Below, in pieces: positions 45,244 to 63,814 of a DNA stretch of 64,000 nucleotides. Origin of the DNA: Proteiniphilum acetatigenes DSM 18083 (GTDB taxonomy: Bacteria; Bacteroidota; Bacteroidia; Bacteroidales; Dysgonomonadaceae). The notes beneath the pieces were generated by a model that had not been told where the DNA came from, searched no databases, and saw only the letters and a program-made list of their open reading frames with translations. The translations under genes and the position numbers were made by a program. Position 1 is the stretch's first letter. Each line of letters begins with the position of its first letter. The DNA lies in the NCBI RefSeq assembly GCF_000380985.1, contig NZ_KB905692.1, positions 558,001-622,000 on the forward strand, given 5' to 3'.

Positions 45244-47754
45244 ATGTATGTAGTCACTAAGAAACTATTATATATTTTTTTTATATTTTACTCATTGAAT
45301 TTACAGGGAATTTTTGCGGAAGGACTCCGTTTTTTCGGTAACGGTTATCCGATAGACAAAAGAACCTCCTATAATGTTTTCAGTGAGCATCCTGTCACAT
45401 TTTCAGATAATTACGAAATCAGCTTTGATCTTTCTTTATACTTAACATCCGACATAGGCAATATTGTCCGGATTAAAGACAGTGACAATCGTATATTCAA
45501 TCTGTTTTACGACGGGCATGAGAAAGATCATCTTTTCCTGTTGAATGAAGAAGGGCGAAGCAATCTGATCAGCGTCGCTCTGGATAAGTCGGTCTATCCT
45601 CCACGTGAATGGTTTTCTATACATATCGGATTCGATCTTAAACGTAATATAATTACTCTTACTGTTGCAGATCAGATCTATCAGTCGGATAATATCTCTC
45701 TTCCTGATAATTTCGCTCCGACTATTGTATTCGGAAGAAGCGACCACATCATAGATGTACCCCCTTTTGCCATTAAGGATCTCTCTGTCGGTAACAACAG
45801 AAAGTTCAGATTTCTCCTCGATGAATATCAGGGTAATATAGTGCATGATATCCGGGGAAAGAAAATGGGAAGTGTTGCCAATCCCGATTGGCTGATCAAC
45901 GACTCCTATCACTGGAAATTAGAATCCCAATTCAGTTCTTCTACTGTTTCAGGTACAAATTATCATGACGGACGAAAAGAACTCTATTATTTTAATCGTG
46001 ATTCAATCCTGATATTCAATTTAAGAACGCGGAATTCTGAAACCGTCATATTCAATGCACCTTGTCCCGTTGATCTTCAATTAGGTACAAACTTCATGGA
46101 CCAGGAGAACGACCGGCTATATTGCTACGAAGTATACTATGACAGCACCTATCAAGGTCCGACCGTTGCAAGTCTTGATCTGCACACTTTCGAATGGCGG
46201 ATCGAGAGCTACGATAGGCTACCCACTCAGCTTCATCATCATGCTTCATGGTTCGACGCATCGTCACGGCAATACATGATATTCGGCGGATTCGGCAATA
46301 TGCGCTTCAGCGACCAGTTTTACCGATATAGTCTCGATGCACAGGAATGGAATTCCTTCCCTATAGATAATCAAGGGGGTATCACTCCCAGATACTTTAC
46401 ATCATTGGGACATCATGAAGAAAGTCACCGACTTTATCTTTTCGGGGGTACGGGAAACTTGTCGGGAGACCAGTTACTGGGGAGGGAGTATTTTTATGAT
46501 CTTTACAGGTTGAATTTACAAACCAATGTGCTCAAAAAAGTATGGGAAATCCCATGGAATCAGGAAAATGCAGTACCGGTGAGGGGAATGGTTATCAATG
46601 ACAAATCGTTTTTCTATACATTGTGTTACCCGGAGCACTTCACCGAGTCGTTCCTGAAACTTTATCGATTCTCCCTGCAGGATGGAGACTATACCATATT
46701 GGGTGACTCCATCCCGATCTACTCAGACAAAATCAATACCAACGCCAATCTCTACTATGACGAGGATTTGAACACCCTTTATGCTGTTGTTCATGAATTT
46801 GAAGATGATATTAAATCCGATTTGCATATCTATTCTCTCGCTTTTCCTCCGATTACGGAAAAGGAGCTTGCCAACCATCCGCCAACAGGAAAGAAAAGTG
46901 ACACATGGATTATTTACCTGATAATAGTAGCGATCTTAACCGGCACAGGAATTGTTTTATACAGGTCGGGCAGGGGTAAAAGAAAAGATGTACAGATATT
47001 TGATATCAGTAACACTTTTAATAAACTCAATCACAAAAACAAAGTACAACCTAAGACCAATTCTATTTATCTGTTCGGTGAATTTACAGTGTGTAACCGC
47101 GATAATCGCAATATCACCTATATGTTCAGTAAAAAGCTGAAAGAAACATTTTGTTTGCTATTACAATACAGCCAGGAAAAGGAAGGTATCACCTCACAGC
47201 ATCTGAGCAGGCTGTTATGGCCTGAAAAACCGCTTCAGGAAGTAAAAAACATAAGGAATGTAACTTTAAACCGTCTCCGCAAGATATTGGAAGAGCTGGA
47301 TGGGATAGAACTTCTTTATGAGAAAGGTATGTTCACTATCACGCTAAAAAGTCCGATTTACTGTGATTATACAAGGTGTATGGAGATTCTTTCTTCAAAT
47401 CAGTGGGAAGCTGAATACAAAGAGCTGATCGAGATTGTAATCCGCGGCAAATTTATGGAAAATGAAGATAAACCGTTTTACGATTCGTTGAAGGAGAAGA
47501 CGGAAAAACGGATTGAACCGCTCATCATCCGTGCTATGGAAGAGAGTTATGATAAGGAGCAGTGGCAGACGACTATTGATCTTGCACAAGCCGCTTTTCA
47601 TATCGACCCTATGAATGAAACGGCACTCAATTGTATGATCAAGGCGATGCAGAAACTGGGGATGCATGAAGGCGCCAAGATCAAGTATCTTTCTTTCCTG
47701 ATAGAATACAAAAAAATAATGGGAAAGGAGTATCCCAATCCCTTGAAATTATAA
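45244..47754 (+). CDS. Membrane-spanning Kelch sensor with SARP/BTAD-like transcription activator
   Basis: The 836-residue protein begins with a signal peptide (about 1-26, ending GIFAEG). A concanavalin/LamG-like domain (about 30-190; YEISFDLSLYLTSDIGNIVR) leads to a Kelch-type propeller (about 210-540; MIFGGFGNMRFSDQFYRYSL, RLYLFGGTGNLSGDQL). One transmembrane segment lies at about 555-577 (WIIYLIIVAILTGTGIVLY). The cytoplasmic part has a winged helix (606-700; IYLFGEFTVCNRDNRNITYM, HLSRLLWPEKPLQEVKNIRN, TLNRLRKILEEL) and a BTAD-like helical domain (700-836), the SARP layout. It is divergent from the mannan locus and probably senses mannan pieces in the periplasm and activates that locus directly, replacing an ECF-sigma or hybrid two-component regulator. 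Confidence 0.85.
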   Translation: MYVVTKKLLYIFFIFYSLNLQGIFAEGLRFFGNGYPIDKRTSYNVFSEHPVTFSDNYEISFDLSLYLTSDIGNIVRIKDSDNRIFNLFYDGHEKDHLFLLNEEGRSNLISVALDKSVYPPREWFSIHIGFDLKRNIITLTVADQIYQSDNISLPDNFAPTIVFGRSDHIIDVPPFAIKDLSVGNNRKFRFLLDEYQGNIVHDIRGKKMGSVANPDWLINDSYHWKLESQFSSSTVSGTNYHDGRKELYYFNRDSILIFNLRTRNSETVIFNAPCPVDLQLGTNFMDQENDRLYCYEVYYDSTYQGPTVASLDLHTFEWRIESYDRLPTQLHHHASWFDASSRQYMIFGGFGNMRFSDQFYRYSLDAQEWNSFPIDNQGGITPRYFTSLGHHEESHRLYLFGGTGNLSGDQLLGREYFYDLYRLNLQTNVLKKVWEIPWNQENAVPVRGMVINDKSFFYTLCYPEHFTESFLKLYRFSLQDGDYTILGDSIPIYSDKINTNANLYYDEDLNTLYAVVHEFEDDIKSDLHIYSLAFPPITEKELANHPPTGKKSDTWIIYLIIVAILTGTGIVLYRSGRGKRKDVQIFDISNTFNKLNHKNKVQPKTNSIYLFGEFTVCNRDNRNITYMFSKKLKETFCLLLQYSQEKEGITSQHLSRLLWPEKPLQEVKNIRNVTLNRLRKILEELDGIELLYEKGMFTITLKSPIYCDYTRCMEILSSNQWEAEYKELIEIVIRGKFMENEDKPFYDSLKEKTEKRIEPLIIRAMEESYDKEQWQTTIDLAQAAFHIDPMNETALNCMIKAMQKLGMHEGAKIKYLSFLIEYKKIMGKEYPNPLKL

Positions 47755-47800: not shown

Positions 47801-48517
47801 TTACACAAATTTCTCACGTTTTTGCAGGTTAAGAAAGCCGACCATCAGCCACACTATACCGCCGATTATCAGAAAAAGACGGCTTTTAAGGATAGTGTTT
47901 TGCCAGATCATAGGGTGGATGTTTTCAGGTATGGAAAAAGGGTTCAGGAAAACATTCCAAAAGGAATTAGCAATCTGGCGATTGGCATTCATGAAGATAA
48001 ATAACAGAAGCCCTAAAATAATCATGATCACAGCCGTACCGTTACCGCTCCTGGTGATGGTCGAAAACATAAAAGCCAGATTGCCGAAAAACAGCATCGG
48101 GAAAATAAGCTGTGCAGCCATTTCAAACACATTGACCGGATAAAGTAAAATACGGGCAACATAAGCAAAAACAACCAGGATAAAATAATTTGCCACATAC
48201 ATCATCAGCATACGCACACCCCATACCTTATAACGGTAATTGGGTATACCGAAAATAATCTCCAGAATCCGGTTGTCTTCATCATTCTGAATACCGAAAA
48301 CAACCGGATAGAAAATGAGCAGTAAACAGGGAAACAGTAATAAACTATAGATCGAGCCTTCATTGATCTCCGCCCGGTTCCATGCCTGTTGAAACATGAA
48401 AAAGGAAAAAAAGCCAAAAGCCGCCAAAAGAAACCAGAAAAATTTACCGGCAAATATTATTTTTAAGTTATACCGTACGGTTCTGGTTGTTAAAACTATA
48501 TATTCTTTTAAGCTCAT
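47801..48517 (-). CDS. ABC-2-type permease, last gene of the hybrid export operon
   Basis: A 238-residue inner-membrane protein with six hydrophobic segments (about 22-42, 56-76, 98-120, 133-152, 160-178, 213-232). The cytoplasmic text NDEDNRILEIIFGIPNYRYKVWGVRMLMMY after segment two is typical of ABC-2 permeases. It starts 4 bp after the stop of the RND-ABC fusion gene. Since that fusion ends in an ABC ATPase and no separate ATPase adjoins, this permease probably pairs with the fused ATPase domain. The substrate is unknown. Confidence 0.85.
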   Translation of the reverse strand: MSLKEYIVLTTRTVRYNLKIIFAGKFFWFLLAAFGFFSFFMFQQAWNRAEINEGSIYSLLLFPCLLLIFYPVVFGIQNDEDNRILEIIFGIPNYRYKVWGVRMLMMYVANYFILVVFAYVARILLYPVNVFEMAAQLIFPMLFFGNLAFMFSTITRSGNGTAVIMIILGLLLFIFMNANRQIANSFWNVFLNPFSIPENIHPMIWQNTILKSRLFLIIGGIVWLMVGFLNLQKREKFV

Positions 48518-48521
48518 AGCA

Positions 48522-51500
48522 TCATATATTTTTCAACAAACATAAGTAAGCATCTTCAAGGTTGGCTTCTACCTGTACTGCATCCGGATAAGGCTCCGTC
48601 ACAGAGATATAGCGTACCTGTATCCGGTCTCCCACCTGGATATTATTTACTACCAACGATTTATCTAATTTTTCCTCAAACGACTCCTTATCGATCAGGA
48701 ACTGCCATACTTTACCCACAGCCATATCCACCATCTTCTCCGGTACTCCGAAGTATTTCAGCTCCCCTTTGTCGACCACCACGACCTGGTTACAAGAGCT
48801 GGAAATATCTTCAATGATATGTGTGGAAAAGATGACTATGCGATCTTTACTCAACTCTACCAATAGGTTACGAAAGCGGATCCTCTCACGCGGGTCGAGC
48901 CCTGCCGTAGGTTCATCTACAACAAGAATACGCGGCAAATGCAAAAGTATCAGGGCAATACCTATCCGCTGCTTCATTCCGCCCGAGAAAGAACCGATCT
49001 TATCATCCTTGCGTTCGTACATGTGTACCGCTTTCAATACATACTCGATCCGTTCACTGCGCACTTTGGTGTCGGTCAATCCTTTAAGTATAGCCTGATA
49101 ATCCAGAAACTCCCGGGAAGTCATGTTTTCATACGTACCGAACTCCTGCGGAAGGAAGCCGATCAGACTTTGCAGTTCTTCCCGGTATACACGGGTATCC
49201 AACCCGTTGATCCAGATGCTTCCATAGCTTTGTTCCAGGATACCCGTAACAATACGCATCAAGGTGGATTTTCCCGCTCCGTTCGGTCCAAGCAATCCGA
49301 ACATACCTGTTTTTATTTCGAACGATACACTACGCAGTGCCTTAAACGGACGACGACGCTTTCCGATTACAGGAATATTCATGACCAGACGGAAATAGGA
49401 ACGTTTCAACCCTGCAAACCGGCCTTTTACGCGTTCGATATTGATATTCTTTGCATACAGGTATTGAGACGTGACATAAATAGCAATACCTGCTCCCCAC
49501 AAAACTCCAATAATCAAGATCATCGGGAGATTATCCAGTTTCGTGTAGAGACCAAACAAGATCAAAGGCGGTATACTCCAGAAAATGAGTCGGTTCACAT
49601 ATCTCACCACCCTGCTTCCTTCAAACCGATAAAAAAGGTATGCCCTTATCTTGCGCCACAAATAAAGTGTGGCAGCATACATAACAAAAGAGAGCAGGAA
49701 ACTCCATAACTTGCTTTCGATATAAAAGTAAGTGAAATAGAAGCCAAATCCCCAAAGGATAAATTGCCAGCTGACATTGACAAAATCTTTCAGCGAATGG
49801 TACTCACCACTCAGTCCCAAACGTCGTCGTATTGCCAATCCGCTGCTCCATTCACGGACAAAACGTCCGGAGCGGTCATATATCTTCACTAGGCTACGCA
49901 CCACGATATGTATTTCCTGATCCGGATCAACCACATCCGCTTTGGCACGCCGCAGGCTGGTCTGCATGAAATAGGTAACCCCCGGGATAAGTGCTGTCAG
50001 CGCCGTCAGGTATAACACCTGATACAACACTCCGTCTCCATACAGATAGATGCATGCCACACCCATCACAAAAAGCACGAGATGGATTATTTTTGTTTTT
50101 ACCGGCAGCGTACGATACCATTCCAACGCATTTTCCAGTCCCATATTCACTGTTGGGATGATCACCAGTGTCAACAAAGTTGAAAACGCAAGACCTCCGA
50201 TCACGGTGATGGCAAATGGGGCGCCGATAGCTCCCGCATATTCCGTATCGCCCATAGCTAACGGAAGCATGGCTATAATCGTCGTGATAGCCGTGATCAG
50301 GATCGGACGGATACGCGACAGTCCGGCTGTCATCAACGCCCGTTCACGGCGGAATCCGCGCTTTCGAAGGATATTCGCGTAGTCGATCAGAATGATACCG
50401 TTATTTACCACCACACCCAGCAAGATGAGGAATCCCATTAATGTATTCGCATTCAGCAGGCTGTTTCCGGTGATGATCAATGCAAGCAACGAACCGATGG
50501 CAGCCAGCGGGATGGAAAAGAGCATGACCAAAGGGGTAGTGACAGACTCAAACACAACCGCCAGGATCATGAATATAAATAAAAAAGCAGCAAGGATAAG
50601 AAATCTAAACTCCCCGAACTGATCTTCTTCATGGATCACCTCGACAGCTACACCTGCCGGCAGATTATAGTTGGCAATCAACTCATCAATATTGTTGCGA
50701 TAACTATCAAGCAACGTTTTGGATTGCTCGGCGCTCCGTAAGAATGAGTAGCGTACCTCAAGTTGTTTATCCTGATTGACACGCGTGATACGGGCTCGTC
50801 CGAATCCTTTGTTGATAGTCGAAATATCTTGCAGGTTATGCAAACCTCCGCTTGTATTCATGATCTGTACCGCTTCAAGATCATCTATCGTTTTTTGTTT
50901 TCTACGTTGCTCCTCCTCTTCTTCGGGTGTTTGATCCCGGATAATAATATCATACGATTCATCGCCTACCCTGAACGTGGTTCCCGACGAAAACTCCGTA
51001 TTCAATTCGGATAACCCGGTCAATATATTAGCACGTGTAATATCATAGGAAGTGAGTAATATCTGATCGAAATCGAGCAGGATCTCCGGCTGACGACGCA
51101 TAAAAGAGACCCGGGAATTTTGTATATAATCCTGCTGGTCGATTTGATATTGAATATCTTCGCCCACCAGTTGCATCATTTCATAATCCGACCCTTTGAT
51201 AACAATCCGCTCCTGATTATCTCCAATACCCAACATGCTCATGAAACCGACCATTCCGCTCAATCCTCCGGCATCACTCTGTCGACCTCCCGTAGCGTCA
51301 GCCACATATATCTCTGCTCCCCCGACATTGGGAATTCGGGCCTGTACATCCGCTTTGATATCGGATATTTTACGTTTCCCGATCTTTTGGAAGTTCTCCT
51401 GCAAAACAAGCGTCAATACAGCCTCTTCCTCATTGACACGGCTGATAAGGTCTTGTTTTTCGGGGATCTCCTCAAGGCGTTCTTCCAACACTACAACTAT

Positions 51501-53216
51501 ATTATCGGTATTTTCCAATGTGCTTCCGGCGGGCATCGTAACATAAATATTAAAACGGTCCGAATCCACCTCCCTGTTTTGTCGCGTAGCTGTCGAAAGC
51601 GATAAGATCAGGGCAAGAAAAAGCAGGATGATGGCGCCGAAGATGGTCACACCGGGGTTGCGCATACATGTCTTTAACAGCACGAGGTATACCTGAGTCG
51701 GGCGTTGCGACAAGGATACTTTTTCATAAAAAACACTTTCGTCTTTCTTACTGCGCAAAACAAAATAGGTGGTCATCGGCACGAACAAAAGCGCCACGGC
51801 CAGAGAGACCAAAAGGGTAGAGATGATCGATACACCGATATGGCTTCCCATGAGTTTGAGCAAAAAATTATCCGAAAAAATAAAAGGAAGAAAAACAATT
51901 ACCGTGGTAAACGTTGCCGCCACAATCGAACGCCACACCTCTTTAGTTCCCTGCTTAACCGACTCGCCGGGCGGCATACCCGTGCCAGACAACCGGTAGA
52001 TATTTTCCAGGACTACTATACTGTTATCCAGCAACATACCTACAGCCAAAGCCATCCCGACAAGCGTAAGGCTATTGACAGAGATCCCTGCATAATAGAA
52101 GAAGTTGAAAGCGGTAAAGACTGATATCGGGATAGAAAGAACAATAAAAAATACCAACCGGACATTTTTCAGGAAGAACCAAAGCACCAGGACAGCCAGC
52201 AATCCCCCCATCAAGGCAAGATTGATGATCTGGTTGATATTATTCTCCATCGTTTCGGCCGTATTGGAGTCGACAACGATCTCCACATCCAGAATTGCCA
52301 GGCGTTCATTCAGTTCGTCAATGGTTTCTAACGTACGATGCGACAGGTCAATCAGATTTGTCTGTGCATCATTGACAAGTGAAACAGATATCGCCTCCAT
52401 GCCATTGACACGGCTAAAAGAGGTTTCTTCCTTCAAATCGAAGAATATAGTTGCCACATCTTTTAATAGAATGGGCCCAGGGGCAATCACAAGATTTTCC
52501 AGATCCGACACTTTGGTATACGATGAGTTTATGTGCACGAAATACTGGCTTTCGGTTTCTTTAACAGTACCGACAAAGACTTTTTCACGCGCGTTACTGT
52601 TCAGCAAATTGCTTATCTGGGAGGGAGTGATATTCAATGCCCTGCCCGCCTCTTTATTCAATTGTATCTCGATGGCCCGCTCACGTCCACCGAAAACCTG
52701 AACCGCGGCGATCCCGTCGATATTCTCCAGTTCGGATACCACTTCCTCGTCCACAATATTACGTACCCGATCGACTCCCCCGTACCCACGCACCTGCAGT
52801 GACATGAAAGCATTACTCATCATCGACACGTCCATTTTCTGCACACGTACGGTGAAACCATCGGGAAGTGAAGCCGATACTTCCTTCATCTTCTCTTCCA
52901 GCCTCAACGAAGTGGTCTTGAAATTCACATTGCTCTTAAAATCAATGCGTATGGATGATTGCCGGCTGCTGATCTCCGATTGTATCTTGTCAACTCCACC
53001 CACGGAGCTGATGGCTCCTTCAAGCGGGATGATTACTTCCGATTCCACATAGGCAGGATCCATATCCTGTTGTGAACTGACAGATACGAACAGCATCGGC
53101 AACTCCGCATTGGGAAGCAGCTCTACCGGTAATTGTTTATAAGACACATACCCCAACAGGGTAAATGCAATAAACAACATACTGATTGTTATTCTTCTAT
53201 TTAAAAGAAAGTCCAT
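48522..53216 (-). CDS. RND efflux pump fused in frame to a membrane linker and an ABC ATPase domain
   Basis: One uninterrupted frame of 1564 residues. Residues 1 to about 1040 are a complete RND permease: RRITISMLFIAFTLLGYVSY, ELLPNAELPMLFVSVS, TM4 text GMALAVGMLLDNSIVVLENI, and the second half with LMGFLILLGVVVNNGIILID and SRIRPILITAITTIIAMLPL. About 1040-1288 is an unusual linker with some six or seven hydrophobic segments and basic loops. About 1289-1564 is a full ABC ATPase: Walker A GPNGAGKST (1310-1318), signature FSGGMKQ (1410-1416), Walker B RILVVDEP (1429-1436) and switch His near 1466. RND pumps use proton motive force and ABC ATPases use ATP, so this joins two energy sources in one polypeptide. 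Its ATPase resembles the stand-alone one at 62921-63814. Confidence 0.93.
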   Translation of the reverse strand: MDFLLNRRITISMLFIAFTLLGYVSYKQLPVELLPNAELPMLFVSVSSQQDMDPAYVESEVIIPLEGAISSVGGVDKIQSEISSRQSSIRIDFKSNVNFKTTSLRLEEKMKEVSASLPDGFTVRVQKMDVSMMSNAFMSLQVRGYGGVDRVRNIVDEEVVSELENIDGIAAVQVFGGRERAIEIQLNKEAGRALNITPSQISNLLNSNAREKVFVGTVKETESQYFVHINSSYTKVSDLENLVIAPGPILLKDVATIFFDLKEETSFSRVNGMEAISVSLVNDAQTNLIDLSHRTLETIDELNERLAILDVEIVVDSNTAETMENNINQIINLALMGGLLAVLVLWFFLKNVRLVFFIVLSIPISVFTAFNFFYYAGISVNSLTLVGMALAVGMLLDNSIVVLENIYRLSGTGMPPGESVKQGTKEVWRSIVAATFTTVIVFLPFIFSDNFLLKLMGSHIGVSIISTLLVSLAVALLFVPMTTYFVLRSKKDESVFYEKVSLSQRPTQVYLVLLKTCMRNPGVTIFGAIILLFLALILSLSTATRQNREVDSDRFNIYVTMPAGSTLENTDNIVVVLEERLEEIPEKQDLISRVNEEEAVLTLVLQENFQKIGKRKISDIKADVQARIPNVGGAEIYVADATGGRQSDAGGLSGMVGFMSMLGIGDNQERIVIKGSDYEMMQLVGEDIQYQIDQQDYIQNSRVSFMRRQPEILLDFDQILLTSYDITRANILTGLSELNTEFSSGTTFRVGDESYDIIIRDQTPEEEEEQRRKQKTIDDLEAVQIMNTSGGLHNLQDISTINKGFGRARITRVNQDKQLEVRYSFLRSAEQSKTLLDSYRNNIDELIANYNLPAGVAVEVIHEEDQFGEFRFLILAAFLFIFMILAVVFESVTTPLVMLFSIPLAAIGSLLALIITGNSLLNANTLMGFLILLGVVVNNGIILIDYANILRKRGFRRERALMTAGLSRIRPILITAITTIIAMLPLAMGDTEYAGAIGAPFAITVIGGLAFSTLLTLVIIPTVNMGLENALEWYRTLPVKTKIIHLVLFVMGVACIYLYGDGVLYQVLYLTALTALIPGVTYFMQTSLRRAKADVVDPDQEIHIVVRSLVKIYDRSGRFVREWSSGLAIRRRLGLSGEYHSLKDFVNVSWQFILWGFGFYFTYFYIESKLWSFLLSFVMYAATLYLWRKIRAYLFYRFEGSRVVRYVNRLIFWSIPPLILFGLYTKLDNLPMILIIGVLWGAGIAIYVTSQYLYAKNINIERVKGRFAGLKRSYFRLVMNIPVIGKRRRPFKALRSVSFEIKTGMFGLLGPNGAGKSTLMRIVTGILEQSYGSIWINGLDTRVYREELQSLIGFLPQEFGTYENMTSREFLDYQAILKGLTDTKVRSERIEYVLKAVHMYERKDDKIGSFSGGMKQRIGIALILLHLPRILVVDEPTAGLDPRERIRFRNLLVELSKDRIVIFSTHIIEDISSSCNQVVVVDKGELKYFGVPEKMVDMAVGKVWQFLIDKESFEEKLDKSLVVNNIQVGDRIQVRYISVTEPYPDAVQVEANLEDAYLCLLKNI

Positions 53217-53256: not shown

Positions 53257-56200
53257 TCAAACCCTGTCTCCTCGTCTCCCCAAACTCCGCTTCATTTGTT
53301 CAAAGACGTAATATACACAGGGGATAACAACCAGACTCATCAACGTTGAAGTAACCAGTCCGCCAATCACGGCCACCGCCATTGACGAACGCATTGATGC
53401 CCCTTCCCCGAAACCAAATGTCATCGGCAACAGCACCAGTATGGTCGTAAGCGTTGTCATGATGATCGGCCGTATACGCTGTTGTCCCGCTTGCACGATC
53501 GCCTCTGTCAGTTCCATCGTTGTCTTCAACTGGTTGATGCGCGCGACCAACAGGATTGAATTGTTGATAGCTATCCCGGCCAACATGATGATACCTATCA
53601 CACCCATGATATTAAGAGGTATCCCCGTTATCAGAAAGATCATGACGGCACCCACCAGGCCAAACGGTATGGTTAATAATATCACGAACGGATAGAGTAA
53701 TGATTCGTACTGGGAAGACAAAACCATGTATACCAAAACCACGGAAAGCAATAATGCAAACAAAAGACTCTCCATCGACTCCTTACGTTTCTCCTCTTCT
53801 CCTGTTACTGTGATGGAATAATTGGAGGGAAGCTCTATATCCCGGACAGCAACGCGAATATCCTGGGCTACCCTGTCAAGTGACCTGCCTGTTTCCATAT
53901 CGGAAACTATCTTGTTGATGCGGCTTTGGTTACGACGGAATATCTCTTTCGGCGCTTGTGAGCCGGTGATGGTAGCTATTTCATTTAACCGGAATTCCTG
54001 ACTTCCGCTTCTTATCACCAGATTTCCCAATTCGCTCCTGGTGATATCCGGCACTTTGATGAGGATATCACGCATCTCCCCCCTATAATCCATTTTCCCG
54101 ACTTCCCGTCCCTGCAGTTGTTGCCCTATCTGCTGGACTACAGTGGCAACCGTAATGTTATTGATTCCCGCAATTGTACGGTTAATAGAGACGTTCAATT
54201 CAGGTGCCCCGTCTGCCATCGACGACTTAATATTATAAATACCGTCCACAGATGCCATTTCCGATAAAACTTCATCAGTGAGAAAAGCGATCTCATCCAG
54301 ATCTTCCCCTTTGACTTCCACAACAATGGGCGCTTCATCACTTCCCAGAAATTCACCCAATGAATGGTCATCCTGCTTAAACGAAAGTTCCAGACCTTCT
54401 ATGTTATCTGTCGCTTCCAGAAAACGGGAGATCACCTCTTCAGGTGATAAACGGCTCTGTTCGGATAAAATAACTTTCATCATGGCCGTATGTTCACCTT
54501 CGAATATCTCATTTGAAGACCCCTTACCGATATGGCTATATATCGTGGCCAGACTATCCTCACTTATTGTATGAAGCAGGTATTCCAGATTATTCACTAC
54601 TGCATCGGTCCGTTCCAGGCGGGTGCCTTCCGGCAGTTTGACCGATACCGTAAAATCTTTTCCTTCGGTACGGGGCAGAAACTCGGTACCGATAAATGGA
54701 AGAAGAAACAGGGAAATAACCAATATAGCTGTCGAAACACCAATCACCAACCAGCGATGTTTGAGCAAAGCCCGAAGTTGATTACTATACCCTTTGAATT
54801 GTACGGCCTTTGTCTCGGTTTTCACATTCTTCCGTCCCGAAAACCTGTCATATAACATGGGGATCACCAATAAGGCGACAAATAGTGATGACAGCAACGA
54901 AAAGGTCACGGTCCATGCCTGATCCCTGAAAAGTTCTCCCGAAGCGCCATGCAAATAGACAATCGGAATAAATACAACGATGGTTGTCAAGGTAGAGGCA
55001 ATGACAGCACCAGATATTTCAGTTGTCCCTTTGACAATCGATTCTTCACGATCCAGGCCTTGTTCCCGGTTTCGGAATATACTTTCTATCACCACGATAG
55101 CATTGTCGATAAGCATCCCTGCTCCCAAAGCCAGACCGCTCAACGTCATAATATTAAGTGTCAAACCATTGAAATACATCATATTAAACGTAGCGATGAT
55201 GGATATTGGTATGGATATGCTTACAATAAGCGTTGTACCTATCCGGCGAAGAAAGAAAAACAAGACCAATACGGCCAGTAACATACCGAAGAGAGCACTG
55301 TCTCTTACCTCCCCAATCGCTTGTTTAATAAAGGTTCCCTGATTGCTGATGACCTGGAACTCATATCCCGGCAGCGCCTGCTCAATAATACGCAACTGAT
55401 TTTCTATTAAATTGACAGCCCTGACCGTATTAAATTGTGTCTCTTTGTAGACGGAGAGGCCGATACAACGCTCCCCGTTGATCCGCACAATATTATCGGG
55501 ACGTGCATTTTCAAACTTTACGGTTGCCACTTCACCTAAAAACAAAGGCGCCCTTTCTGTATAGCCATCTGTATTTTGCGAAGCGGCTCCTGTAGTGCTT
55601 GTCTCGATAGGCTTATAACTAATGATCAGATTCTTGAAATCCGATTCGGAAGTAAACATCGATGAACTTTTCACTAAATACTGCAATCCCAATTCACTCA
55701 CTCTTCCTCCGGAGATACTCTGATTATTTGTTTCGATTTTCGAGGCAATCTCTTCCATGGTGATACCGAAAGCACTCAGTTTATAGGGATCGGTCTCTAT
55801 GGTTAACACAGGTACTTCCTGACCCGACAAAGCCACTTCGGCTACCCCTTCGAGACGAATGAGCTCGTTACGTATATAGCTATCCGCCATTTTCCGCAAC
55901 TCTGCCATATCCGTTATTGAATGGTGAGACATGGCGATCAGCATAACCGGCGCCATATTCGGATCGTGCTGCGTGATATTGACCGATTCAATATCCTGGT
56001 TCTGTGAAAACGGGGTCATGGCTTTCTGAAGATCGAGGAAAGCCTCATCCATATCTTTATTTTGCACGTATTCCACCGTTACACGGGCAGATCCTGCCCT
56101 GATAATGGAAGATACCTGCGTGACATCGCTTTGCCGGATAGCCATCGACTCCATACTTTCGATAAACATTTTCTCGATCTCTTCCGGCGGGCGCTCCCCG

Positions 56201-56355
56201 GCTTCAATCTCTACAAAGAGGCGTGGAGTATTCATATCAGGCAATAGATCCACACTTAGCCGGTCGTACGAGATCTTCCCTAACAGCAAGATCGCAAATA
56301 CGATCATACTGATGGTAACGGGATTTTTTAATGCGAATCTGACTATATTCCTCAT
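53257..56355 (-). CDS. RND-family efflux permease (AcrB-like)
   Basis: A 1032-residue inner-membrane pump of normal RND length with the duplicated layout TM1, periplasmic loop, TM2-6, TM7, loop, TM8-12. Family text: NPVTISMIVFAILLLGKISY, SVDLLPDMNTPRLFVEIEAG, TM4 LSGLALGAGMLIDNAIVVIE with the relay Asp (the neighbour is Asn, as in many non-AcrB members), VIASTLTTIVVFIPIVYLHG, and IIMLAGIAINNSILLVARIN plus RIRPIIMTTLTTILVLLPMT. It is upstream of the RND-ABC fusion by 40 bp. Two different RND pumps with one adaptor suggests a heteromeric pump like MdtBC; this is inference. Confidence 0.93.
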   Translation of the reverse strand: MRNIVRFALKNPVTISMIVFAILLLGKISYDRLSVDLLPDMNTPRLFVEIEAGERPPEEIEKMFIESMESMAIRQSDVTQVSSIIRAGSARVTVEYVQNKDMDEAFLDLQKAMTPFSQNQDIESVNITQHDPNMAPVMLIAMSHHSITDMAELRKMADSYIRNELIRLEGVAEVALSGQEVPVLTIETDPYKLSAFGITMEEIASKIETNNQSISGGRVSELGLQYLVKSSSMFTSESDFKNLIISYKPIETSTTGAASQNTDGYTERAPLFLGEVATVKFENARPDNIVRINGERCIGLSVYKETQFNTVRAVNLIENQLRIIEQALPGYEFQVISNQGTFIKQAIGEVRDSALFGMLLAVLVLFFFLRRIGTTLIVSISIPISIIATFNMMYFNGLTLNIMTLSGLALGAGMLIDNAIVVIESIFRNREQGLDREESIVKGTTEISGAVIASTLTTIVVFIPIVYLHGASGELFRDQAWTVTFSLLSSLFVALLVIPMLYDRFSGRKNVKTETKAVQFKGYSNQLRALLKHRWLVIGVSTAILVISLFLLPFIGTEFLPRTEGKDFTVSVKLPEGTRLERTDAVVNNLEYLLHTISEDSLATIYSHIGKGSSNEIFEGEHTAMMKVILSEQSRLSPEEVISRFLEATDNIEGLELSFKQDDHSLGEFLGSDEAPIVVEVKGEDLDEIAFLTDEVLSEMASVDGIYNIKSSMADGAPELNVSINRTIAGINNITVATVVQQIGQQLQGREVGKMDYRGEMRDILIKVPDITRSELGNLVIRSGSQEFRLNEIATITGSQAPKEIFRRNQSRINKIVSDMETGRSLDRVAQDIRVAVRDIELPSNYSITVTGEEEKRKESMESLLFALLLSVVLVYMVLSSQYESLLYPFVILLTIPFGLVGAVMIFLITGIPLNIMGVIGIIMLAGIAINNSILLVARINQLKTTMELTEAIVQAGQQRIRPIIMTTLTTILVLLPMTFGFGEGASMRSSMAVAVIGGLVTSTLMSLVVIPCVYYVFEQMKRSLGRRGDRV

Positions 56356-56397: not shown

Positions 56398-57450
56398 CTA
56401 TTTCAATACTTTGACACGGCTATTTTCACGCAGCGTCTCGTATCCCCTGATGATCAGATTATCATTTTCTTTCAGCCCCTCGATAACCTCTACGTTATCT
56501 TCATCTTCAAGCCCGGTTTGAATATCCCGTAAAATGGCCGTGTTTCTTTCCACGATATAGACATATTTTCTGTTCCTTCTTGAAAGGACAACGTCTTTCG
56601 GAATAATAATTGCGCTATCCGCCTGATCTACCACGATATCGGCTTTTACAAACATACCGGGACGCAGTTTCAACCGGTCGTTATCAATCAATATTTTCCC
56701 TTTGAATGTACGTGTTTCCGTACTGATAGCCGGTGACAATTCGCTTATCTCTCCCCGAAGCGTATCATCAGGTAAAGTATAATGGGTAATGTGTACCGGT
56801 TGATTTGATTTTACATATCCAATCGCACTTTCCGGGAGATTGATATCCATATACATACGCGTATAGGCCATCAATCCAACCATCAGACTTCCTTGCGTGA
56901 CCTGACCCTGTTGCGTGTAATGCGGCAGGGATACGATGATTCCGTCAAAGGGAGCCCTTACATTCATTTTCTCAAGATTTATGGTTGCATTTTCAAGGTC
57001 GTAACGGGCATTGGTGACTCTCACCTCGGTATTGCGCATTTCACTTAAGGTAACGCCCCCTTTTTCATGCAGCGCTTTTTGTTTGTTTTGTTCTTGTTCA
57101 GCAATTTCAAGACTCAGTTTTTTAGATTCGAGCGCGATCCCGTTTTCATACTCCTTGTTTTCAAGTCGTATGATCAGCTGCCCTTTTCTAACCGCGTCAC
57201 CCAGCTTATAAGGCCTGCCGGTGGAGGGATTCGTCTGAAGGTTGTAAAATCCGTTCATCTCGGCATTGAGTTCTACGCTATAAGTTGCCTGCGCCGTTCC
57301 CGTCGTATTGATCAACCTACTGATCGAACCTTTTTTAAGTTCCTGCACCGAGACAGGAGTTTCAATATCGCTTTGACTGCTTTGGGTCTGATTTCCACAT
57401 GCCGTAAGTAAAGCAATAACTATCACGGATAATAAGATCCTGTACTTCAT
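56398..57450 (-). CDS. RND periplasmic adaptor (membrane fusion protein) lipoprotein
   Basis: The ATG at 57450 (MKYRILLSVIVIALLTAC) gives a 350-residue lipoprotein with Cys 18; the open frame runs 13 codons further. The adaptor layout is visible: beta-barrel/lipoyl half (SISRLINTTGTAQATYSVEL, GDAVRKGQLIIRLENKEYEN), helical hairpin (LEIAEQEQNKQKALHEKGGV, NARYDLENATINLEKMNV), second lipoyl half (RAPFDGIIVSLPHYTQQGQV), beta-barrel and membrane-proximal domain (LRPGMFVKADIVVDQADSAI). It should bridge the RND pumps and the TolC-type channel and is located between them in the operon. Confidence 0.92.
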   Translation of the reverse strand: MKYRILLSVIVIALLTACGNQTQSSQSDIETPVSVQELKKGSISRLINTTGTAQATYSVELNAEMNGFYNLQTNPSTGRPYKLGDAVRKGQLIIRLENKEYENGIALESKKLSLEIAEQEQNKQKALHEKGGVTLSEMRNTEVRVTNARYDLENATINLEKMNVRAPFDGIIVSLPHYTQQGQVTQGSLMVGLMAYTRMYMDINLPESAIGYVKSNQPVHITHYTLPDDTLRGEISELSPAISTETRTFKGKILIDNDRLKLRPGMFVKADIVVDQADSAIIIPKDVVLSRRNRKYVYIVERNTAILRDIQTGLEDEDNVEVIEGLKENDNLIIRGYETLRENSRVKVLK

Positions 57451-57485
57451 ATGATTAAAATATTTATTTCCTCTTGTTAGTAAAT

Positions 57486-58988
57486 TCAATAATTAACTTC
57501 TACCAATTCCCTGACCGGTACAATGGGTTCATCCTTTTCAAAGTCATACAAAGAGAGGATCTTAAGGTTGAGCAGTTCAATTTTATAGTTGATAAGCGCC
57601 TGTGCATAAGCCATTTTCCTATTAGACAACTGGGTCTGGAACTGACTGATCTCCATCCCTGTAAGATCGCCTTCATGATACCTCGTCAAGTTAATATCGT
57701 ACGTAAGTTCTGCATTGCGTACACTTTTTTCTGCAATATCAATTTGGGTACGGAGATTTTCAAGTCTTCTCCATACTTGCCTCACATCCAGTTCGATATC
57801 GACTCGCAGATTTTCCTGCTCCAGCTTTGCTATGGTTTGCGCTATTTTTTGTGCTCTTACCCGTGCTCTTTTTTCACCCCAATCAAAGATAGGAACGGCA
57901 AGACTTACTGCTATACGCGGATTTTGGGTAGGATTCTCGTAAATATTGCCAAACCTTTCGTTGTCACCAATGATTCCTACCGATAGTGAAATATCTCCCC
58001 TGAACTCGTTCAGGCTTTTGGTCTGGATCATCTGAAGTTCTCCCAGTTCAATATCAATTTCACGCTGCCGAATTTCCATTCTTGAACTCAGGCCGCTCTG
58101 AACAGCGTGGTTCAAATCAACGGCTATAGGACTCACCTCTATTTCAGCAGTCACTGCAATGTCTTCATTCAACGGCATTCCTAAACTTTGTTTCAGCTGA
58201 TCCTTCGCGTTTTCAAGTGAAACGACACGTTCCTCAACAGCCGATTGTGCATTGGCGAGATTCAGTTCCGCCTGGTATAGCTCTTCTCTTGCCGATAAGT
58301 CGGCCTCTACCTTATTTTTGATGATCTCAAAACTCTGTTGCGTATTTTCAAGTTCTTCCTTACTGATGGCCAGGTTATTCTGAGCCATATATACGGCATA
58401 GAACTGATTGGTAATGCTTCTTTCCGTGTTTAACCGTTGCAGGGCATATCGTATGCCCGCGTTTTCATAGTCAAACTCAATCTGTTGCAATTCCATCTTT
58501 CGACGATTGTAAGTAAAAATCGGCTGTGTCAGTCGCAAATAAAGATCGTTGCTAAATGCCCTGTTACTATTATCCACACCTTCCACTGTCGATTTATTGT
58601 CCTGCCAGCCAAACGTATTGATAAGTGAAATTTCACCGTCGGTCAATAAGATTGGTTGTGATATCATGAAGGTTCCGCTTGTGTTAAGGGTTTCATTGGT
58701 ATACCACTGAGACAACCTGTTGTCAAATCTCCTTGACCTGCTGTAATTAAGAGGATTAAGATCCAATGAAAATCTGGATTTTAGTGATGCACGCTGCGCG
58801 ACAAGATTCTGTTGATACCTTTCAAGGTTGAGCTTCGATGCTTTCAGATCCGGATTATGCTCTTCCGCGATATCCAACGCCTGTTCAATGGTTAACGGTA
58901 CTTGCGCATAGGTGACTGATAACAATGATATCACCACAAAAAAGACCAGTAAGCAGGAAAGTTTTATCCTTAACCGTTTCATATCCAT
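57486..58988 (-). CDS. TolC-family outer membrane factor
   Basis: A 500-residue outer-membrane channel with a signal peptide (cleavage after VTYAQ). The two OEP repeats are clear: PLTIEQALDIAEEHNPDLKA near the start, ITNQFYAVYMAQNNLAISKE, AELNLANAQSAVEERVVSLE, then AVSLAVPIFDWGEKRARVRA and LDVRQVWRRLENLRTQIDIA. These are the long helices of TolC-type tunnels. The start lies 17 bp after the stop of the upstream ABC-permease fusion gene, so translation may be coupled. It completes the tripartite export path. Confidence 0.92.
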   Translation of the reverse strand: MDMKRLRIKLSCLLVFFVVISLLSVTYAQVPLTIEQALDIAEEHNPDLKASKLNLERYQQNLVAQRASLKSRFSLDLNPLNYSRSRRFDNRLSQWYTNETLNTSGTFMISQPILLTDGEISLINTFGWQDNKSTVEGVDNSNRAFSNDLYLRLTQPIFTYNRRKMELQQIEFDYENAGIRYALQRLNTERSITNQFYAVYMAQNNLAISKEELENTQQSFEIIKNKVEADLSAREELYQAELNLANAQSAVEERVVSLENAKDQLKQSLGMPLNEDIAVTAEIEVSPIAVDLNHAVQSGLSSRMEIRQREIDIELGELQMIQTKSLNEFRGDISLSVGIIGDNERFGNIYENPTQNPRIAVSLAVPIFDWGEKRARVRAQKIAQTIAKLEQENLRVDIELDVRQVWRRLENLRTQIDIAEKSVRNAELTYDINLTRYHEGDLTGMEISQFQTQLSNRKMAYAQALINYKIELLNLKILSLYDFEKDEPIVPVRELVEVNY

Positions 58989-59005: not shown

Positions 59006-62000
59006 CTATCTCCTTACAATCCTCACGGCATCGGCCGTTACGGTAGATAGCCTGGAATCATTACTCAAAACAACTTGCACCGTATCATTACTAAAAAAGT
59101 AAGTACCTAATATACTCCAGCCCTCTTCCGAGCGCTGCAAATTAATGTATGCATTTTCTTCGTCACCGTCATATCGTACTTTAAAGTGATATTCGGGATC
59201 TCCGCCGGTCCGGCCACGGCCGCGTCTGCCTCGACCTCTGCGAAGTTCATCCGGCTTGTAGATATAATAATATAAGTCGTACTGGCCGGACTCGGGAACA
59301 GGAATTTTCCATGTCGCGATCTGGCTTCCGCTCCCGCTTTTGATCACATAAGCAGAGCGGACATGCTTGCCATAATATTTATCATTCGTAGTCAATGTCC
59401 ACTGCAACGGTGGACGCCATCCCGATACACCCGAATAGCGGAACGAGTTGTCATCCACCTGATCAAGCCATTGCGGCAAAAGCCCCACGACATCTGGTAC
59501 TGACAACACGAACAGTGTCGAGTCTTCATTGTCGACAATTACCTCTCCGGGTATGTCGTGGGAAGCGTTTTCCACGACAAAATCACCTTCTTCATCTACC
59601 GGTTTATTCCGTTCACGAATGATATTGTTTACCGGAAGATCGATCACGCTGGGTAGGTTTGCCGATATCAGCGTGTTGACATTGATATTACGCGGCGGTT
59701 CGTCCCATACCGACACTAAGTTTTTCGTTTCACGCGCCTTGAGAGGTACTTTCCGCTTTGCACGCGGGTCATATATTGCACCGCCTTGTCCCCCTCCCAT
59801 ATTTATTTCCACGTTGATCACCCCATCATGATCTGAATCATTTGTAATCTGTAGCTTCACAACAAATACTTCCCTGTCACGATTCGTAATCTGGACAACT
59901 TCCGGTGTTCCGATGAGATAGACAGGAAGAGGAGTAGGATGATACCATGCCCCAAGAGAAGCACGCAGGTCCACATCAGCAATCATCCCCATGGTATCCA
60001 ACAGGCTCTCGAATCTCAGGTTGGTAAATATATTACGCTGCAAAACAGCACGTAACGAATCCCTGTATTCCTTATACCCTACATTCCGCTCTGCGTGAGC
60101 AAATAAATAATTGGCTTTCAGAGAAGTGACATTATCGAGTAAATCCCGCTGTTCTACATCGGCAAGAAGTTCTTTGAATGGTGATTTCTCCATCAGCAAG
60201 TTTGCTTTTTCATTATTGCTGATCCCGTTCATTTGCCTGATCCAATTGTTATTATCCGCTTTATCCTGCAGGTATAGTTCAATTAAGCGGTTGGCAATCG
60301 GCCACTCGGAAGAAAAAATATTGTACCTGAAATTATACAATTGCGGGAAAACAAAATAAGGATTCGGTTTCACGGAAACATTCACCGTCCCCCGGTCCTG
60401 CGACCAGTCAACATTGCTTTCCGTCCGCTCAAACAATCGTGTAAACCGGTTCAAGACACGCATAGCCGCTTCTTCATCGCTGATCTCCTGTCCGTTTCGT
60501 CTTGCCCGGTTTTTTTCATCCTGAATTCCTTTCACCACATCCGCATCATTGATCAGACTGCCTTTTTCAGGGAATAACACCATCTCGGGTTGCATCACTT
60601 CCTGTGCCTGTGTCCATGTACGCGCATAACTGTAAAACTGCACAGGAACCTCGACAAGAGAAAAGCGACTAAAGGAATAATCAAGTGAATAGGCGATTTC
60701 AATCGAGCGTCTGCGCTCTCTGATCTGTGCCGGGATCGTATCGGCGATCTGATCGAACACAGTTGAAAAATAATCATGCCCTTTCAAATACCATATACTA
60801 AAAAGTGTCTCATCCACATCAATACTTTTCTGTTCATAATCGCCGATAATAAGCGAGATGGATGGGGTCAGAAAATCAGTTTCATAAATAAAAATACTAT
60901 CGTAGGAAACTTCCGTGATCACTTTCGGCCTTTTTTCCACCAACTCCTTACCTTTGACCGCAACTGAATCCTGCCCAGCACCTCTATCCGTAATCCTTTC
61001 CCGGCCTCGATTATTTCCTACATCGCCCCCTCTGTCTGGTCTCCTTCGATTCTCTCCTCTTTCCGGTCTTCCTTCACGACTTCTACCTCCTTCACCCCAT
61101 TCACGATTTTCTCCCCGATCTGTACCTCTTTCCCTGCCCGTTCTTCCTTCTCGCCCTTCACCCCGAACCACTCCTTCTTCCTGGCTTCTTCCCGCATCGA
61201 TTCTCCCCTCCCGATTTCCTCGTTGTCTACGAAGCGAATCCCGGGCGAAGGCTCGGGTTGTATCTCTATCCCGACCAGAGATTCGGATTGAATCTCTTCG
61301 AGAGAACCTATCCCTGACAGTACGATCATCTTCTCCCGAAGCTGTCAACTCGCTGTCAGACTCTTCTGTTTTATCGGGATCGACCTCGATCCTTTTCACG
61401 ACCGGCCATTTCATGGTACCCTGAGACAACGCTTTCAAATTATCTATCGTCTTCACTTTCAAACGGAAATGACTAAAATAAGCCTGTTGCCAATCCGGGT
61501 TTTCACTACTATAAGACGTGCCGGGACGTGGATACCAATAAGTTTCAGGTGTGAAAAGCAAATAGTTTTTATCCTGAAAACTGTATTTCTTATCTATCTT
61601 GAACATTTCTCTTGCATATTCCTCCTGTAATAACCCGGCAGGAATATCCAGATAACAAAAGTCTTCATAAATAGATCCGGTATATTTCACTTTAAACCGA
61701 ACCGAATCTCCCTGCGCAATTTCACGTCCAAAATCAATCAACAGGATTTGATGATCCCGCGTAAATGACAACGCTTTATCATTTTCCGTCACTTCGCTCA
61801 CGGTCAATCCGGGATTCAGGCAAAACGTGAAAACAGCCGCTCCGTCCAATGCTACCGCACGCATCTCCACTTCCGATGAGATCGTTTGAGGGTGCTGATC
61901 CAGGCTGATATCATAATGGTCGATCACCATTTTCGGCCTGTTCACATATTGATTGTTCACTTCGGTATATAATTGACGCATTTTTGCCGCTTGGGTGATG

Positions 62001-62836
62001 GACACCACATGATTATATGCAGCCCATATCCCGGCGGCAACGAAAAGCAACGACAGGAAAATCCAACGATAACTTCCCTGTTTTGTATTGGGAAGTCGCC
62101 TGAACAGGAAGATGGACAAACAAATAAATCCCAATCCAAGCAAAAGGTAAATCATACGGTGATTGATCAACGCTCCCCAATTTGAAAATCCAATGATCGT
62201 AGATTTTACCAGAGGCAGATTATACACCATATAATCAAACAGGTAATAGAACTTATCACCAATATAGAACAGTGTAAGTGCAATATATCCCAATAAAACA
62301 ACAAAAGTAATGGCCTGGCTTTTAAGGACAAGCATAAGTCCGATGGAGAGGCCGAAAATATAAACCAAAGTGGGGATACAGATCAACAGAAAATAAACAA
62401 GATAAGCCATCCAGTCGATGGATACGCCTGAAATAAGATTGAAAGCAACAACCAACACAATGATAAAAAGGTCTAACCGGATAAAAACCCCCATATTTCC
62501 CAAAATCTTACCGATCACATATTCCGCATTGCTAAGGGGATGCACATAGAAAACTTCGGAAGTATCGAGCTTTTTATCTGATTTCAAAAATTCGGATGAC
62601 AGAAATACGGCTATGATAGCCTGTCCGGTATTCAGAAACATCAGGTTAACATAGGGGATGTTGGCCGGCAATGCCTTCATCATCCAGAATCCGCCACCAT
62701 CAGCGACCAATGTTGCAAAATTAAATATGCACAAAAACAAGATTGCCAGCACGAGAAAGATACGGTAAAACCAGCTTCGCATCAGAAGCTTACTCTCGTA
62801 CTTAGCAACAGACTGTATATTGTGCAGTTTGGACAT
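59006..62836 (-). CDS. ABC permease fused to a degenerate M1-peptidase-like domain and a golvesin-like domain
   Basis: The 1276-residue protein starts with an ABC-2 permease (1-290, about seven hydrophobic segments; YESKLLMRSWFYRIFLVLAI, YVHPLSNAEYVIGKILGNMG). Residues ~295-1010 resemble the M1-aminopeptidase half of Bacteroidota ABC/M1 fusions (IDHYDISLDQHPQTISSEVE, LLFTPETYWYPRPGTSY, RFSLVEVPVQFYSYARTW, EMVLFPEKG), but no HEXXH zinc motif is found, so it should not cut peptides. A low-complexity Arg/Gly/Glu/Asp tract (about 492-635) interrupts it. The C-terminal ~125 residues (HVRSAYVIKSGSGSQIATWK ... RLSTVTADAVRIVRR) match golvesin/xanthan-lyase-type C-terminal domains. The ATPase partner is probably the upstream gene. 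Confidence 0.85.
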   Translation of the reverse strand: MSKLHNIQSVAKYESKLLMRSWFYRIFLVLAILFLCIFNFATLVADGGGFWMMKALPANIPYVNLMFLNTGQAIIAVFLSSEFLKSDKKLDTSEVFYVHPLSNAEYVIGKILGNMGVFIRLDLFIIVLVVAFNLISGVSIDWMAYLVYFLLICIPTLVYIFGLSIGLMLVLKSQAITFVVLLGYIALTLFYIGDKFYYLFDYMVYNLPLVKSTIIGFSNWGALINHRMIYLLLGLGFICLSIFLFRRLPNTKQGSYRWIFLSLLFVAAGIWAAYNHVVSITQAAKMRQLYTEVNNQYVNRPKMVIDHYDISLDQHPQTISSEVEMRAVALDGAAVFTFCLNPGLTVSEVTENDKALSFTRDHQILLIDFGREIAQGDSVRFKVKYTGSIYEDFCYLDIPAGLLQEEYAREMFKIDKKYSFQDKNYLLFTPETYWYPRPGTSYSSENPDWQQAYFSHFRLKVKTIDNLKALSQGTMKWPVVKRIEVDPDKTEESDSELTASGEDDRTVRDRFSRRDSIRISGRDRDTTRAFARDSLRRQRGNREGRIDAGRSQEEGVVRGEGREGRTGRERGTDRGENREWGEGGRSREGRPERGENRRRPDRGGDVGNNRGRERITDRGAGQDSVAVKGKELVEKRPKVITEVSYDSIFIYETDFLTPSISLIIGDYEQKSIDVDETLFSIWYLKGHDYFSTVFDQIADTIPAQIRERRRSIEIAYSLDYSFSRFSLVEVPVQFYSYARTWTQAQEVMQPEMVLFPEKGSLINDADVVKGIQDEKNRARRNGQEISDEEAAMRVLNRFTRLFERTESNVDWSQDRGTVNVSVKPNPYFVFPQLYNFRYNIFSSEWPIANRLIELYLQDKADNNNWIRQMNGISNNEKANLLMEKSPFKELLADVEQRDLLDNVTSLKANYLFAHAERNVGYKEYRDSLRAVLQRNIFTNLRFESLLDTMGMIADVDLRASLGAWYHPTPLPVYLIGTPEVVQITNRDREVFVVKLQITNDSDHDGVINVEINMGGGQGGAIYDPRAKRKVPLKARETKNLVSVWDEPPRNINVNTLISANLPSVIDLPVNNIIRERNKPVDEEGDFVVENASHDIPGEVIVDNEDSTLFVLSVPDVVGLLPQWLDQVDDNSFRYSGVSGWRPPLQWTLTTNDKYYGKHVRSAYVIKSGSGSQIATWKIPVPESGQYDLYYYIYKPDELRRGRGRRGRGRTGGDPEYHFKVRYDGDEENAYINLQRSEEGWSILGTYFFSNDTVQVVLSNDSRLSTVTADAVRIVRR

Positions 62837-62920: not shown

Positions 62921-63814
62921 CTAACCATCAATCCACCGGTTCAGCTTTTTCTCCATATAATATACATACGCATGTTCGAGATTGGGCGGATAGGGTTCCG
63001 CATCGTAGCCCTTTATCTCGTCGGCAACGACCTGAATTTCCCATCCTGTGCCGGATGGTATGGTAGTAATAACCGGATATTTTTTATCTATCAGGGGCAA
63101 GTCGTCGCCACTGATTTGCATACGCCAGACTTTCCCTTCCGCTGTCTTTCGCATATCTTCCGGCGAACCGAAGAAAGCAATTTCGCCTTTGTTCATCAAA
63201 GCCATGCAATTACAGGTACTTGATATATCACCCACGATATGCGTCGATAAAATGATCGTTACATCCTGTTCACTGATCTTTGCAAGCAGGTTACGAAAAC
63301 GGATACGTTCTTCCGGATCTAATCCTGTGGTGGGTTCATCCACGATAATCAATTTCGGATTGTGAATCAACGCCTGCGCGATGCCCAAACGACGTTTCAT
63401 CCCACCCGACAATCTTCCGGCATACCGTTCCCGCACATCAAACAATCCGACACTTTCCAACATCTCATCAACCGCCTGGCGACGTTTCTTTTTGTTGTTC
63501 ATACCGGACAATCGTGCAGCATAGTCTAAAAATTCATGTGTTTTATATTTGGCAAAAAAACGAAAATCCTGGGGTAAATAGCCAAGGATAGCACGCACCT
63601 CTTTACGCTCTTTCAGCAGGTTATATCCAAATACATCGACTTCTCCGGACGACGGCTCCATAAGGGCCACAAGGATTCGCATAAGCGTGGATTTTCCCGC
63701 TCCGTTAGGTCCCAACAGTCCAAACATACCAGTCGGGATCTCCATACTGATATTTTTTAATGCATGGTTACCATTTGGGTAAACCTTATTCAGCGAACGT
63801 ATTGATATGCTCAT
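62921..63814 (-). CDS. ABC transporter ATP-binding protein, first gene of the hybrid export operon
   Basis: A 297-residue cytoplasmic ATPase with Walker A GPNGAGKST near 37-45, Q-loop GYLPQDFRF, signature RLSGGMKRRLG, Walker B KLIIVDEPTTGLDPEERIRF and switch His in LSTHIVGDISSTCN. The C-terminal tail (GKVWRMQISG ... DAEPYPPNLEHAYVYYM) aligns with that of the fused ATPase in the RND-ABC protein (GKVWQFLIDK ... EPYPDAVQVEANLEDAYLCL), so the two are paralogues by duplication. It precedes the ABC-permease fusion by 84 bp and is preceded by a full promoter in the dispersed repeat. Confidence 0.93.
   Translation of the reverse strand: MSISIRSLNKVYPNGNHALKNISMEIPTGMFGLLGPNGAGKSTLMRILVALMEPSSGEVDVFGYNLLKERKEVRAILGYLPQDFRFFAKYKTHEFLDYAARLSGMNNKKKRRQAVDEMLESVGLFDVRERYAGRLSGGMKRRLGIAQALIHNPKLIIVDEPTTGLDPEERIRFRNLLAKISEQDVTIILSTHIVGDISSTCNCMALMNKGEIAFFGSPEDMRKTAEGKVWRMQISGDDLPLIDKKYPVITTIPSGTGWEIQVVADEIKGYDAEPYPPNLEHAYVYYMEKKLNRWIDG

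Follow-up and report, generated by a model that had tools for sequence, protein, structure and literature searches.

The 64,000-nucleotide stretch analysed here (the window) covers positions 558,001 to 622,000 of contig NZ_KB905692.1 of Proteiniphilum acetatigenes DSM 18083, and it carries a single gene (48522–53216, minus strand) in which a permease of the resistance-nodulation-division (RND) type is joined to an ATP-binding cassette (ABC) ATPase. RND pumps and ABC pumps are regarded as distinct superfamilies, each with an energy source of its own. The fusion is a real, conserved gene and no assembly join. As judged from alignments and a predicted structure, a membrane segment is inserted inside its ATPase, between the first strand, which bears the A-loop residue Tyr1113, and the rest of the domain. 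On balance, we favour the reading that the gene encodes a subunit of a seven-gene trans-envelope exporter, in which a four-part ABC exporter would be yoked covalently to a two-subunit RND tripartite pump. The fusion protein and its parts were delimited as follows.

48522..53216, minus strand: RND-ABC fusion protein of 1,564 aa; single open frame with an ATG start and a TGA stop
50148..53216, minus strand: RND permease part, residues 1–1023, with two large periplasmic loops (Pfam ACR_tran, hydropathy)
49944..50102, minus strand: extra transmembrane helices 13 and 14, residues about 1039–1091 (AlphaFold2 model, hydropathy)
49878..49916, minus strand: first ABC ATPase strand with the A-loop tyrosine, residues about 1101–1113 (conservation, 12-mer match, model, structure alignment)
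49356..49877, minus strand: membrane insert within the ATPase, residues 1114–1287, comprising a helix, four transmembrane helices and a helix (alignment, AlphaFold2)
48525..49355, minus strand: remaining ABC ATPase and C-terminal part, residues 1288–1564 (Pfam ABC_tran, motif columns)

A preliminary description made from the letters of the window had proposed that one unbroken frame joins both transporter types, and the Pfam searches agreed. ACR_tran matched residues 2–1023 as a full-length domain (E 3.8e-153, profile positions 3–1016 of 1021), and ABC_tran matched residues 1294–1438 (E 6.9e-26, profile positions 1–137 of 137). Hydropathy analysis gave 13 hydrophobic segments in residues 1–1023, one of them (241–259) inside the first loop region, and the 12-helix layout with two loops (about 21–330 and 540–872) was recovered by hydropathy only. 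The best solved relative of the RND part was MdtB. The motifs conventionally named in ABC ATPases (A-loop, Walker A, Q-loop, signature, Walker B and H-loop) were all present in the fusion, in line with the preliminary description; the last five, including the signature SGGMKQR, lie in residues 1288–1564, and their columns showed no variation across the 70 rows of the motif-column alignment. This alignment was made without L068 and, like that of residues 985–1564, without three loci that were too short (L021, L041 and L064) and six near copies. The PDB sequences nearest to the fused ATPase were ABCA ATPases, and the top-scoring ATPase model among the matches listed in NCBIfam was TIGR03522 (GldA), with 184.1 bits, below its cut-off of 402.6 bits.

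The conservation of the fusion was assessed with a linker profile built from 10 sequences, out of 19 loci spanning the linker. A contig scan with this profile retrieved 218 stretches, corresponding to 162 relatives, and locus counts out of 80 refer to the best 80 of these 162; the closest named records were Proteiniphilum and related Bacteroidales. A full-length fused frame was found in 69 of the 80 loci, including those of the isolates Bacteroides faecis MAJ27, Parabacteroides gordonii DSM 23371, P. goldsteinii and Tannerella forsythia ATCC 43037. In nine further loci the junction was spanned in one frame that was partial, and seven of these frames hit a contig end. In L041 (the locus of L013, a metagenome-assembled genome, MAG), the fusion frame stopped near residue 1487, which makes it approximately 77 residues shorter than the window protein, while in L087 the frame was broken inside the RND part with the junction spanned. 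The contig of L082 ended before the junction. The sole locus broken at the junction was L064, from a Parabacteroides MAG, where three frames were present and the outer-membrane factor gene was broken too; apart from this locus, the junction breaks and consistently separate genes that the preliminary description had named as refuting outcomes did not occur.

Whole-genome searches were confined to Bacteroidota genomes at least 90% complete, comprising 392 from the order (the window's own included) and 392 from the phylum. The linker was present in 50 of the 392 order genomes and 34 of the 205 genera, including human gut and mouth genera; 50 is a lower bound, as fusions with a differing linker escape the profile. 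Forty-four of these 50 genomes had a frame of 1,515–1,640 aa, and the remaining six had shorter frames that all reached a contig end, as calculated from contig coordinates. In the phylum sample the linker was found in six genomes, four of which were not of the order: two belonged to its class and two to another class. The fusion architecture thus extends to a second order and a second class of the phylum. Two order genomes, G181 and G262, had fusions at 28–29% identity with an unchanged layout. Among the matches listed (101 relatives), fusions showed at least 49% identity and every other RND protein at most 29%. An assembly join is excluded because 69 of 80 loci carry the full-length frame and the fusion recurs in another order and class, and homologues keep the two parts together rather than always as separate genes.

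The ABC domain described earlier as complete and lying after the linker proved complete in its motifs and non-contiguous in its fold, as its first strand (approximately residues 1101–1113) precedes most of the linker. The residues V1110, K1111 and Y1113 were invariant in 79 of 79 sequences, and the A-loop tyrosine was assigned to Tyr1113. The first-strand 12-mer matched the operon's own stand-alone ATPase with a score attained in 5 of 2000 shuffles, AlphaFold2 predicted a strand at 1104–1110, and the region aligned with the N-terminus of solved ATPases when the model of residues 985–1564 was compared with them using VIA-align. The predicted structure bore out the extra membrane helices of the preliminary description, six in all, and placed them not in one block but split 2+4 about the first strand. 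Helices 13 and 14 correspond to helices 55–75 and 79–107 in the numbering of the model, and simple hydropathy detected three of the four transmembrane helices of the insert. In L113 and L114, from one genus, the insert lacked approximately 66 residues and seemed to accommodate two helices rather than four. We know of no precedent for an ABC ATPase fold interrupted by membrane helices.

The fusion gene lies in an operon of seven genes, all on the minus strand. The other six genes and a hairpin past the last of them are as follows.

47720..47737, minus strand: terminator-like hairpin past the last gene (consensus match only, 0.2 expected)
47801..48517, minus strand: putative ABC-2-like (type V) transmembrane half of 238 aa with six hydrophobic segments (ABC fold)
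53257..56355, minus strand: second RND permease, 1,032 aa (Pfam), upstream of the fusion in most testable loci
56398..57489, minus strand: periplasmic adaptor, or membrane fusion protein (NCBIfam TIGR01730, 186 bits, cut-off 94.9)
57486..58988, minus strand: TolC-family outer-membrane factor (Pfam OEP)
59006..62836, minus strand: 1,276-aa protein with an N-terminal ABC-2-type membrane half, followed by a large, presumed periplasmic part (Pfam)
62921..63814, minus strand: stand-alone ABC ATPase (Pfam, tree)

A tripartite set of inner-membrane pump, adaptor and outer-membrane factor is therefore encoded together in the operon. The 238-aa gene was downstream of the fusion in 68 of 70 testable loci, the second RND gene was directly upstream in 61 of 69 loci, and the adaptor and the outer-membrane factor were each upstream in 63 of 66 testable loci. 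For the ABC set, the evidence was structural for the fused ATPase and the 238-aa half, Pfam and the tree for the stand-alone ATPase, and Pfam only for the 1,276-aa half. This last protein matched ABC2_membrane_2 at residues 71–191 (28.8 bits, cut-off 27.2) as well as Golvesin_C, and its hydrophobic segments lay at 26–277. A long Arg/Glu/Gly-rich stretch occupied the centre of the part presumed to be periplasmic. By eye the protein had seemed peptidase-like, an assignment that was not used, as no Pfam M1 match was obtained; HExxH was absent in three of the four family members inspected, and one HETKH occurred in L124.

The stand-alone ATPase was the closest relative of the fused ATPase in the genome (43%), and a duplication of the ATPase within the operon is likely. 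It is graded no higher because, in the ATPase tree, the outside ATPases L181 and L182 joined the fused ones (support 92/81) and the outside ATPases had long branches; the tree was built without L187 and the stand-alone ATPase of G262 (L160).

The 238-aa protein had the membrane fold of NosDFY, ABCG and ABCA type ABC transporters in the structure comparison. Its family alignment was built from the window sequence and 58 of 74 loci. It gave no NCBIfam match at E 0.001. Compared with the GldF profile (alignment of 21 of 25 loci), the family showed a colinear, weak match (probability 3.5%, E 0.012). A search of the genome with TIGR03518 (GldF) matched one place, which was below the cut-off and was not the 238-aa gene, and an identification as GldF was accordingly rejected.

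The operon's most likely function is, as predicted from its sequences and structure models, trans-envelope export. By sequence and predicted structure, the ABC set consists of two ATPases (62921–63814 and the RND-fused domain) and two ABC-2-type membrane halves (47801–48517 and the N-terminus of 59006–62836), and the RND set of two RND subunits, one adaptor and one outer-membrane factor. The covalent link between the sets is the fused ATPase, held by four to six extra helices, most of which are predicted to sit between its first strand and Walker A. In the favoured reading, the fused and stand-alone ATPases would heterodimerise on the two membrane halves, and the ABC unit would carry substrate from the cytoplasm or the inner-membrane leaflet to the periplasmic side. 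There, the tethered RND trimer could pick it up and pass it through the adaptor to the TolC-like channel; the fusion would hold the two pumps adjacent in a set ratio, which may allow direct handover. The two-engine exporter of the preliminary description is plausible for the whole operon, but not for the single chain, and two of the four proton-relay residues are replaced.

Known systems resemble parts of this arrangement. MdtABC-TolC consists of two RND permeases, one adaptor and one outer-membrane factor, a make-up shared by the RND set of the operon; unlike the operon, it has no ABC parts, and MdtB has the second Asp and the Lys where the window fusion has Asn. In NosDFY, ABCG and ABCA type transporters the ATPase stands alone or is fused to an ABC membrane half. 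They are similar to the operon in the membrane fold of the 238-aa protein, and the fused ATPase is nearest to ABCA ATPases, whereas their ATPase is not fused to an RND pump. The likeness to GldA is that of the best-scoring ATPase model among those listed, at a score below its cut-off, and the likeness to GldF is limited by the low probability of the colinear match. MacAB-TolC and other ABC tripartite exporters are ABC-driven and combine an adaptor and a TolC-type channel with a membrane protein to which the ATPase is fused (PMC8277102, PMC10094684). The fusion resembles MacAB-TolC in this association, but the MacB ATPase is joined to its own ABC permease domain, whereas the ATPase of the window fusion shares its chain with an RND permease and is interrupted by a membrane insert. 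The portion of the literature covered by our search held no description of an RND-ABC fusion, in agreement with the earlier claim; one may exist elsewhere, and the architecture may well be catalogued in domain databases.

Several points weigh against the favoured reading. Complex formation, stoichiometry and substrate are all inferred. The RND part may not work as a proton pump, considering its Asn residues at the Asp408 and Lys940 places. The model of residues 985–1564 was of middling quality (pLDDT 77.1, pTM 0.52), with values of 54–75 in the blocks near the first strand. Sequence matches leave the placement of the 238-aa family difficult: 10 of its 59 members matched Acyl_transf_3 (best E 4.5e-6), and just 4 of 59 matched ABC2_membrane_3 (best E 0.0017). 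Furthermore, the seven genes do not have to form a single unit, because L071 and L077 have the fusion paired with the 238-aa gene, away from the other operon genes. The second RND lay elsewhere in these two genomes (67% and 66%, respectively, with one in-frame stop in that of L071). These same pairs suggest that the 238-aa membrane half is the nearest partner of the fusion. In L080 the fusion had neither neighbour (238-aa gene or second RND); the best RND match in that genome, a MAG, was 30%, and the 238-aa gene was on another contig.

Another explanation is that the ABC motor drives the RND part, with ATP hydrolysis relayed via the insert and helices 13–14 to the membrane domain of the RND part, where it would substitute for the proton relay or aid it. 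The covalent link via extra helices in the compared fusions is consistent with this, as is the state of the relay. In AcrB, Asp407, Asp408, Lys940 and Arg971 are the residues needed for proton coupling. We compared these places, by alignment with MdtB, in three groups: the fusions (71), their partner RNDs (64) and other RNDs of the order (22, of which 18 were picked by hand among the listed relatives and four were near copies from Bacteroides flanks). The Asp408 place was Asn in 70 of 71 fusions (one Cys) and in all 64 partners, and the Lys940 place was Asn in all 71 and all 64, versus Asp and Lys, each in 21 of 22, in the other RNDs. Two of the four residues are thus replaced in both RND subunits. 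Against this explanation, the first Asp was retained in all 64 partners and all but one of the 71 fusions, as was the Arg (with a gap in the one exception), so that some proton coupling may persist; in addition, the ATPase has the operon's own ABC membrane halves to drive.

The inference that the altered relay shows ATP drive was also weakened by the one control RND with Asn at both places, which is encoded in an ordinary RND operon (L207, L218) containing no ABC gene among the listed open reading frames of at least 250 aa. In 60 phylum genomes, the pattern VDNAIVV occurred at 26 places versus 75 for VDDAIVV; these places are not confirmed as RND genes, and the patterns require Val before Asp, thereby missing both RNDs of the window operon, and do not cover the Lys940 place. 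Because an ordinary pump shares the residues and Asp-Asn is a frequent form across the phylum, the relay change was downgraded to a hint. We consider it unlikely that the ABC motor drives the RND part, and the corresponding idea of a hybrid primary-secondary transporter, in which a membrane-threaded ATPase would couple ATP hydrolysis to an RND part with a reduced relay, the cycles being locked in a single trans-envelope machine, appears equally unlikely.

It is also rather doubtful that the fused ATPase serves chiefly as a scaffold, or as an ATP-sensing regulator recruiting the RND pump and setting its timing, without acting as a motor. The set has two ATPases and only one of them is fused, as such a role would allow; however, a pure scaffold would not need the invariant catalytic motifs, and an ABC membrane half adjoins the fusion in the operon. 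That the linker is itself an ABC permease half, making the chain a self-contained two-engine exporter, had been suggested in the preliminary description and now appears very improbable. An ABC-2 half has six helices, the same number as the extra helices in the model, but these are split around the first strand, with four inside the ATPase, the insert is shorter in L113 and L114, and the operon has separate ABC membrane halves. Moreover, comparison of the linker profile with the ABC half of the operon revealed no similarity (E 0.25, probability 0.2), the insert alone being neither folded nor searched. Finally, the break in L064 would fit an assembly or frameshift artefact, which is refuted by the full-length frames of the isolates and the join kept in distant relatives in independent assemblies.

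Around the operon, no gene common to all eight upstream flanks was seen by eye, while an EamA-like transporter seemed present in three of them (L189, L190 and L191). Upstream of the operon's first gene, L101:5000-9320 had no long protein frame, and its short overlapping frames resembled an rRNA region by eye. A Tannerella MAG had an extra 432-aa open reading frame between the second RND and the fusion (L054:5168-6463). In the window, a plus-strand gene at 45244–47754, convergent with the operon's end, had Kelch/beta-propeller matches in Pfam; by eye, its protein showed a membrane segment and a C-terminal part resembling a DNA-binding regulator.

Overall, the fusion is apparently undescribed, and it is assembled from two known kinds of transporter, with the ATPase split. 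It offers an ABC ATPase fold interrupted by membrane helices, and it physically ties, in one conserved gene, RND and ABC pumps that are normally held separate. Whether ATP can feed or drive an RND pump becomes testable through this fusion.
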